From assembly GCA_028687995.1 (NCBI GenBank), contig JAQTZA010000013.1, positions 1 through 64,000 on the forward strand: a stretch of 64,000 nt of DNA. The letters are read 5' to 3'. The notes under the pieces are model-generated. The model ran no database searches, was not told the origin of the DNA, and saw nothing but the letters and a program-made list of their open reading frames with translations. The stretch's first letter is position 1. The number at the start of each line of letters is the position of its first letter. This document shows positions 40,498-42,390 of this stretch, piece after piece. This stretch comes from Bacteroidales bacterium. GTDB taxonomy: Bacteria > Bacteroidota > Bacteroidia > Bacteroidales > UBA7332. Position numbers and translations under genes: made by a program.

Positions 40498-40643
40498 CCC
40501 AAGGCGATGCCGTTGGGTTGGTTTACTCTTACACCCAAGGCGTTGCCGTTGGGTTGATGCTATACTGTCCTGTCAGGGCGCTTTTGGTATCTTTGATATG
40601 GCTGAAGGCCTTATATATCATCAACCTAAGGCATCGCCCTAGG
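40498..40643. repeat. REP/BIME-like cluster of three imperfect palindromes
   Basis: CCCAAGGCGATGCCGTTGGG (40498-40517), CCCAAGGCGTTGCCGTTGGG (40534-40553), inverted-orientation CCTAAGGCATCGCCCTAGG (40625-40643). Confidence 0.75.
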
Positions 40644-41496: not shown

Positions 41497-42390
41497 TTAA
41501 TGTGTTAATACTATTTTTATTTTTTCAAAATTAACGGTGTGCCTCTGCAAGTCCTTTCTAATAATTTTACATATTTCATCATTAAATACAAAATCGCCAT
41601 CAGCTAATGATAATGAACCATCTTCTAAAACAACTTCTTTAACGTGAGCTAATTTATTTCTCTTATCAATAATATCAGATTTGTAGTTATTTAGTAACTC
41701 TATAATTTCCTTATCTCCGATATGATTAGCAATGTTTTGTACGGACATCCATTTATGATTTGTACTAAAGTCTCTGTGTTCAAAGATTGAATCATCAGAT
41801 AAATTACTAAAAGTACCAATCATATCATTTAGTGATTTTAATACTTTTTTCTTACGCTTATCAATAAATCTATTTTTTTCATCTGTTTCAAGATTGGACA
41901 GATATTGTTTTAAAAGATCAATCATTTTATGGTCTAACTCTGATACTTCAGCCATTACTAATCCTCGCATATTGTTAATATCTTGAACTTTTCTTATCGT
42001 AGAATAAATAATTTTCTCAACCTTCTTAACAAATGAATTTCCATCCCTACCTGAAAAATAAACACCCTCAAGCTCCAATTCTTTTATTTTTTCAGAGACC
42101 TTGCTCACACCTTCAGATGAATAAAATATAATGTTTGTAAATACCTCAAATCCGCGAATTCTTTGTATTAACTTATCCCCTGTTGGAGATTTATCCAGAT
42201 TTAAATCCATTAGAATTAAATCATAATTCGAGAAATTTACATTCTCCAAATCATCACCATCTTTTTTAAGAAGTGGTAGATTCATTTTAAAACCTAATTC
42301 ATCCTCAACAATTTCCCTAATATTATCAACAATAGATTCATACCAATCTACATCATTTTCAAACCAAAGTATGCTATATTTTAAATTCAT
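41497..42390 (-). CDS. Receiver-domain protein with C-terminal HEPN-like helical domain
   Basis: Receiver core: acidic WFENDVDW, YDLILMDLNL (D62), NIIFYSS (S91/S92). C-terminal IIDKRNKLAH gives R244-x4-H249. Confidence 0.7.
   Translation of the reverse strand: MNLKYSILWFENDVDWYESIVDNIREIVEDELGFKMNLPLLKKDGDDLENVNFSNYDLILMDLNLDKSPTGDKLIQRIRGFEVFTNIIFYSSEGVSKVSEKIKELELEGVYFSGRDGNSFVKKVEKIIYSTIRKVQDINNMRGLVMAEVSELDHKMIDLLKQYLSNLETDEKNRFIDKRKKKVLKSLNDMIGTFSNLSDDSIFEHRDFSTNHKWMSVQNIANHIGDKEIIELLNNYKSDIIDKRNKLAHVKEVVLEDGSLSLADGDFVFNDEICKIIRKDLQRHTVNFEKIKIVLTH

Follow-up and report, generated by a model that had tools for sequence, protein, structure and literature searches.

A receiver-domain protein with a probable HEPN-type RNase output in a restriction-like gene cassette of a Bacteroidales bacterium

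Response regulators mainly control transcription, second-messenger enzymes and, in few cases, RNA binding. Here we describe a response regulator in which an RNase of the HEPN type is the probable output domain. The gene lies in a 64,000-nucleotide stretch of Bacteroidales DNA (contig JAQTZA010000013.1, positions 1 to 64,000), referred to below as the window, and its product is called REC-HEPN. With moderate confidence, we take the protein to act as effector in a restriction-like defence cassette of four genes, which encode an m5C methyltransferase, a dual-GHKL ATPase/histidine kinase, REC-HEPN itself and an HNH nuclease (Table 1). Its setting, a mobile methylation/restriction cassette, suggests a defence system in which a phosphate signal triggers the destruction of RNA, and a regulator that switches a toxic RNase would link the two-component phosphorelay with abortive-infection defence. 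A sequence-only reading of the same DNA had already proposed a receiver joined to a HEPN-like module; we add to it the mobile R-M-like cassette and the other candidate effectors that occupy the same slot in relatives.

Table 1. Positions of the cassette genes, of the codons discussed and of related loci that carry a different downstream protein.
Feature	Position	Strand	Remarks
C5-cytosine DNA methyltransferase, 406 aa	44714..45934	-	PPCQG and ENV motifs; 1-base overlap with ATPase start
Dual GHKL ATPase, 775 aa	42387..44714	-	N-terminal paraMORC/MutL-like HATPase_c_3; C-terminal histidine-kinase-like HATPase_c (674-772)
H567 codon, candidate phospho-His in DHp-like segment	43014..43016	-	invariant in 15/15 ATPases
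REC-HEPN protein, 297 aa	41497..42390	-	ATG start; receiver ~residues 1-130, linking helix 117-165, HEPN-like ~135-297
D62 codon, candidate phosphoacceptor	42205..42207	-	invariant, 14/14 homologs
R115 codon	42046..42048	-	kept in 13/14, near canonical receiver Lys position
R244-N-K-L-A-H249 codons, HEPN Rx4H motif	41644..41661	-	end of helix 227-248
HNH_2 endonuclease, 259 aa	40707..41486	-	N-terminal domain ~residues 7-85
Loci with H-G/S-C protein	L026:10139-11549, L028:4543-5911, L029:9980-11354, L076:7132-8462		L076 is a Stenotrophomonas plasmid

The N-terminal part of REC-HEPN can be assigned to the receiver domains with confidence. Pfam Response_reg matches residues 19-107 (E=2.9e-6, with a score slightly below the cut-off) and 9 of 11 members of the family, a family profile built from 11 homologs hits solved receivers (best E=5e-8), and the model superposes on solved receivers of the CheY-like fold with Z ~12 over residues 4-169 or 5-138. 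The conserved positions were examined in 14 homologs, the window protein included, that come from a search of related loci (L017-L019) and from whole-genome searches; the set is small and confined to one phylum in the GTDB sense, and the first ten others are 19-55% identical to the window protein. The receiver-like core foreseen by the sequence-only reading is thus borne out, and so are its details: D62, its likely phosphoacceptor, sits at the end of beta-3 and never varies in the alignment, and S91/S92 are found after beta-4 (F89-Y90-S91-S92), where every homolog has a serine or threonine.

The switch itself departs, as judged from the alignment, from the canonical one at two places. The beta-5 lysine, a feature of canonical but not of all receivers, is absent, and a conserved arginine (R115) stands about two residues further on; the window protein reads VYFSGRDG (110-117) in this region, which had rightly been taken as the mark of a non-canonical switch. 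The acidic pair after beta-1 is non-canonical too: where a D-D pair would be canonical, the window protein has E11-N12, the homologs together read [DE][DN], and 5 of the 14 have E-N or D-N. With no lysine and an E-N acidic pair, the receiver may be phosphorylated weakly or not at all. This is the root of the main rival to a phosphorelay, namely that the HEPN RNase is real and the receiver is a phosphorylation-independent switch, which reads a nucleotide or, by direct contact, whether the GHKL ATPase has ATP bound, so that the two proteins would form a toxin and its allosteric partner. Both departures fit such a switch, one family member matches iREC, the inactive receiver family of Pfam, and kinase-less receivers of conflict systems have been proposed to be nucleotide-responsive switches or nucleotide-processing enzymes (PMC8195603, PMC7824862). 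However, the strict conservation of D62 and of the serine or threonine after beta-4, beside an ATPase that has an invariant histidine and kinase boxes, is hard to explain without phosphotransfer, and we consider the phosphorylation-independent switch unlikely.

The evidence for a phosphorelay comes in large part from this ATPase. Its C-terminal HATPase_c domain is recognised by Pfam with E 3e-19; in an alignment of 15 ATPases one histidine ahead of this domain, H567, never varies, and nearly all keep the N, G1 and G2 boxes. By sequence, then, the protein has the boxes and the phospho-His candidate of a histidine kinase, and the combination of these boxes with an invariant histidine in a DHp-like segment favours the proposal of a receiver driven by the dual ATPase. 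The genes are tightly linked as well: those of the window overlap by 4 bases, and in every REC-HEPN locus the receiver gene either overlaps that of the ATPase or comes immediately after it. The distance matrices of the two proteins are correlated (r=0.74, Mantel p=1e-4, 13 loci), which may partly reflect shared genome ancestry. The N-terminal 200 residues of the ATPase match NF050001 with E=1e-20, at 74 of 550 bits and so far under the cut-off. At one locus (L062:4489-6703) the ATPase gene beside the REC-HEPN homolog seems to be split or truncated (ORFs of 465 and 172 aa), possibly a decaying copy.

The RNase reading of the C-terminal half begins with the motif R244-N-K-L-A-H249, which is present as had been claimed. 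R....H patterns are frequent in shuffled sequence, and the motif alone is therefore weak evidence: shuffles of REC-HEPN contain Rx4-6H in 58% of cases and R[ND]xxxH in 4.5%. Conservation is more telling. Most columns of the alignment are variable, yet R244 and H249 are invariant, the residue after the arginine is N in 13 homologs and D in one, and A or G precedes the histidine, so that R-[ND]-x-x-[AG]-H holds in 14 of 14. The other invariant residues of this half are K134, R142, G143 and R278; D153 is kept in 13. The suggestion that an RNase has taken the place of a DNA-binding output thereby stands as far as the arginine and histidine are concerned, both of which came through the proposed conservation check; it stops short at the HEPN family cut-offs, none of which is reached. 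Pfam HEPN matches of the members are weak (HEPN_Swt1, best E 0.019, two members; HEPN_MAE_28990, E 0.29), and no member attains the curated cut-offs of these two families (11.7 of 26.8 bits). A HEPN_Swt1 match of the family consensus in a Pfam scan (E 0.097) was level with chance families and was set aside, and the C-terminal profile found no relative among PDB sequences.

An independent comparison of profiles also points to HEPN proteins. Among 234 proteins from the relatives' loci (11 family members and 223 non-family controls), the Pfam-certified HEPN protein L064 scores above all the other controls and is surpassed only by the 11 family members, and its alignment to the window protein places KRNKLAH against KRNKLAH. 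The Swt1-type HEPN protein L069 ranks next after two controls, and the remaining HEPN proteins tried are unremarkable. These results also bear on the possibility that the C-terminal half is a helical output domain unrelated to HEPN, with its R....H pattern a coincidence and its arginine and histidine conserved for another purpose. Neither single-sequence HMM searches nor Foldseek give a significant HEPN match, and R142, G143 and R278 are invariant too, while we know of no HEPN family that requires residues like these. Set against this are the unbroken pattern in all 14 homologs, where it closes a long helix, the rank of a true HEPN protein over every control and the enrichment of HepT structures described below, and we regard coincidence as very improbable.

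Structure prediction agrees with the helical C-terminal part that had been expected. The full-length AlphaFold2 model (pLDDT 69, with only four sequences in the alignment) has a long helix at 117-165, followed by helices 169-186, 210-224, 227-248, which ends in the motif, and 271-296; a short beta-hairpin (251-254, 260-264) comes directly after the motif. Modelled alone, the C-terminal domain has a pLDDT of 59. With this model Foldseek returned no significant match, and its list consists mostly of unrelated coiled coils. With a second aligner, ranks 2, 5, 7, 8, 9 and 10 go to HepT HEPN toxins (Z 7.0-7.4 over 100-108 residues), at a level where Z 7 is attainable by chance, Z below 13 being common among helical bundles. 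PDB titles among the structural matches mention AMPylated HEPN. The outcome of the fold check proposed earlier is thus suggestive: HepT takes six of the ten best structural rows, whereas the Foldseek E-values are not significant and the model is of low confidence. As the model is uncertain and such Z values are common, a HEPN fold for the C-terminal domain is supported by modelling, not proven.

The same structural rows bear on the catalytic nature of the domain. MtlR, a HEPN-superfamily repressor, appears at ranks 23 and 26 of the second aligner, and MtlR-type HEPN families are non-catalytic (PMC3710099); the RNA-binding response regulators EutV and AmiR appear in the fold search. A HEPN-like bundle could accordingly serve for RNA binding, dimerisation or docking, and the protein would then control the R-M genes, perhaps in the manner of an ANTAR-type RNA-binding response regulator. 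However, non-catalytic HEPNs typically lose the arginine or the histidine, both of which are invariant here, and a separate regulatory target is not evident; we think a non-catalytic role improbable and prefer that of an RNase.

Relatives of the ATPase offer a different line of support, for what follows the kinase gene is not always a HEPN protein. In four loci (Table 1) the ATPase is accompanied by a receiver-like gene and then by a small protein whose H-G and S-C never vary and which, to judge from these motifs, may be a caspase-like or C25 protease that replaces the HEPN RNase. Pfam C25 matches one of these proteins weakly (E=0.12), and none of them matches a PDB sequence. On a plasmid of Hymenobacter volaticus (L079:3565-8699), an N6-type DNA methylase, a GHKL sensor kinase, a short receiver-like protein and an MBL-fold hydrolase are encoded in a row, and the hydrolase may be another effector exchange. 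A haloarchaeal plasmid from Halomicrobium (L080:4983-8364) encodes a dual-GHKL kinase and a receiver protein with an additional C-terminal part. A sensor-relay platform that accepts interchangeable effectors would be expected to have different proteins in one slot, and this variation independently supports the HEPN domain as an effector. We tentatively extend this to a family of defence cassettes, a generalisation that we hold somewhat less likely to be right than wrong, in which a DNA-sensing GHKL kinase would phosphorylate a receiver that gates an exchangeable lethal enzyme: a HEPN RNase here, a caspase-like protease or an MBL hydrolase in relatives. If true, two-component signalling would be a trigger of abortive infection.

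The neighbouring genes resemble those of a restriction system. A methyltransferase gene is present in all the REC-HEPN loci that we inspected, and the HNH_2 gene starts ten bases downstream of the REC-HEPN gene; the linked m5C methyltransferase and HNH_2 protein have the arrangement of type II R-M and are predicted to restrict DNA. Two relatives, L025 and L060, have the HNH protein's N-terminal domain as part of the ATPase (E 4e-11 and 2e-9), a fusion that links the nuclease to this complex. The HNH protein is optional as a fourth member, since several homologs (L018, L019, L022 and L061) lack it immediately downstream.

Several observations suggest that this R-M-like cassette is mobile. The flanking CYTH and cydB genes lie 119 bp apart in a genome of the same genus (G001 C5:200867-201319 and 201439-202605) as against 5.65 kb in the window, and the cassette is therefore an insertion at the CYTH-cydB site or was lost from the other genome. 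The GC content of its genes is 0.28-0.38, compared with 0.40-0.43 in the flanking genes examined. Full-length matches are confined to 6 of the 395 genomes of the class, a rarity in keeping with an accessory system. Single-protein searches detected no relatives of REC-HEPN among plasmids, phages and viral contigs, and the gene is thus not common on the phages and plasmids of these collections; PADLOC has no model that matches the protein. Beside the HNH end of the cassette, the sequence CCCAAGGCG[A/T]TGCCGTTGGGTT occurs in two copies (40498-40519 and 40534-40555, 36 bp apart), and nowhere else in the window, with 0 copies expected by chance.

Taken together, a working model can be drawn for the cassette. 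HEPN proteins of the catalytic type are metal-independent RNases. The methyltransferase would mark self DNA, and the ATPase, by itself or together with the HNH protein, would sense foreign or unmodified DNA, or failing modification, through its MutL/paraMORC-like half. The kinase half would then autophosphorylate on H567 and pass the phosphate to D62 of the receiver, and a rearrangement of the receiver dimer might bring two HEPN domains together so that they share a composite active site of R244 and H249. The activated pair would cut RNA (tRNA or mRNA), and growth would stop, as befits a putative role in defence against phages.

Loci of a related kind have been described. Bellieny-Rabelo et al. 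(2021, PMC8011034) report that loci of Response_reg_2 (PF19192) and HEF_HK (PF19191) adjoin genes for C5-MTase, HNH_2 and Vsr, and that Response_reg_2 proteins have no other known domain; neither HEPN nor RNase is mentioned there. The likeness to the window cassette is considerable, as both combine a GHKL protein (HATPase_c_3 and HATPase_c), a receiver-like partner, a C5 methylase and HNH_2 in a type II R-M setting. We rejected filing the cassette under Response_reg_2/HEF_HK, as the Pfam models do not match the window proteins: the ATPase and the receiver gave no match to PF19191 or PF19192 up to E=1, and the window's genome contains no PF19192. The sole locus of this type among the relatives, L063, differs in having Vsr, and the readable C-terminal part of its receiver protein is without R-[ND]-x-x-[AG]-H.

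The HEPN RNases reviewed by Anantharaman et al. (2013, PMC3710099) occur in R-M, toxin-antitoxin and abortive-infection systems and share with REC-HEPN the Rx4H motif, a polar N or D after the arginine, the position at a helix end and the R-M context. HEPN domains of the Ymh family are fused to paraMORC ATPases (PMC3710099), whereas in the window the HEPN domain sits on a separate response regulator. The receiver-HEPN architecture was not found in that survey or in a wider search of open-access papers. Burroughs and Aravind (2020, J Bacteriol, doi 10.1128/JB.00365-20) are cited for their treatment of receivers in conflict systems, and the figure legend of a 2026 screen (PMC13092281) names HATPase and REC domains in predicted, unvalidated defence systems. 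As in the window, an N-terminal GHKL ATPase is linked to methylases and nucleases among the MORC/paraMORC ATPases that belong to predicted R-M systems (Iyer et al. 2008, PMC2292703) and in the BbrUII/HgiDII family of restriction enzymes (NF050001); the window ATPase has a histidine-kinase module, and not a nuclease, at its C-terminal end.

MntA-HepT is a further comparison for the output, HepT chains being the recurrent structural neighbours of the C-terminal model. HepT is controlled through AMPylation by MntA; in the window, control would lie instead with a receiver and a kinase-like ATPase. A phosphorelay-gated RNase would account for the repeated occurrence of kinase-like paraMORC ATPases and receivers next to methyltransferases, an association noticed in 2021 for which no output had been given. 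Related receiver/ATPase/R-M loci have thus been known since then, and it is the HEPN output that we judge to be new.
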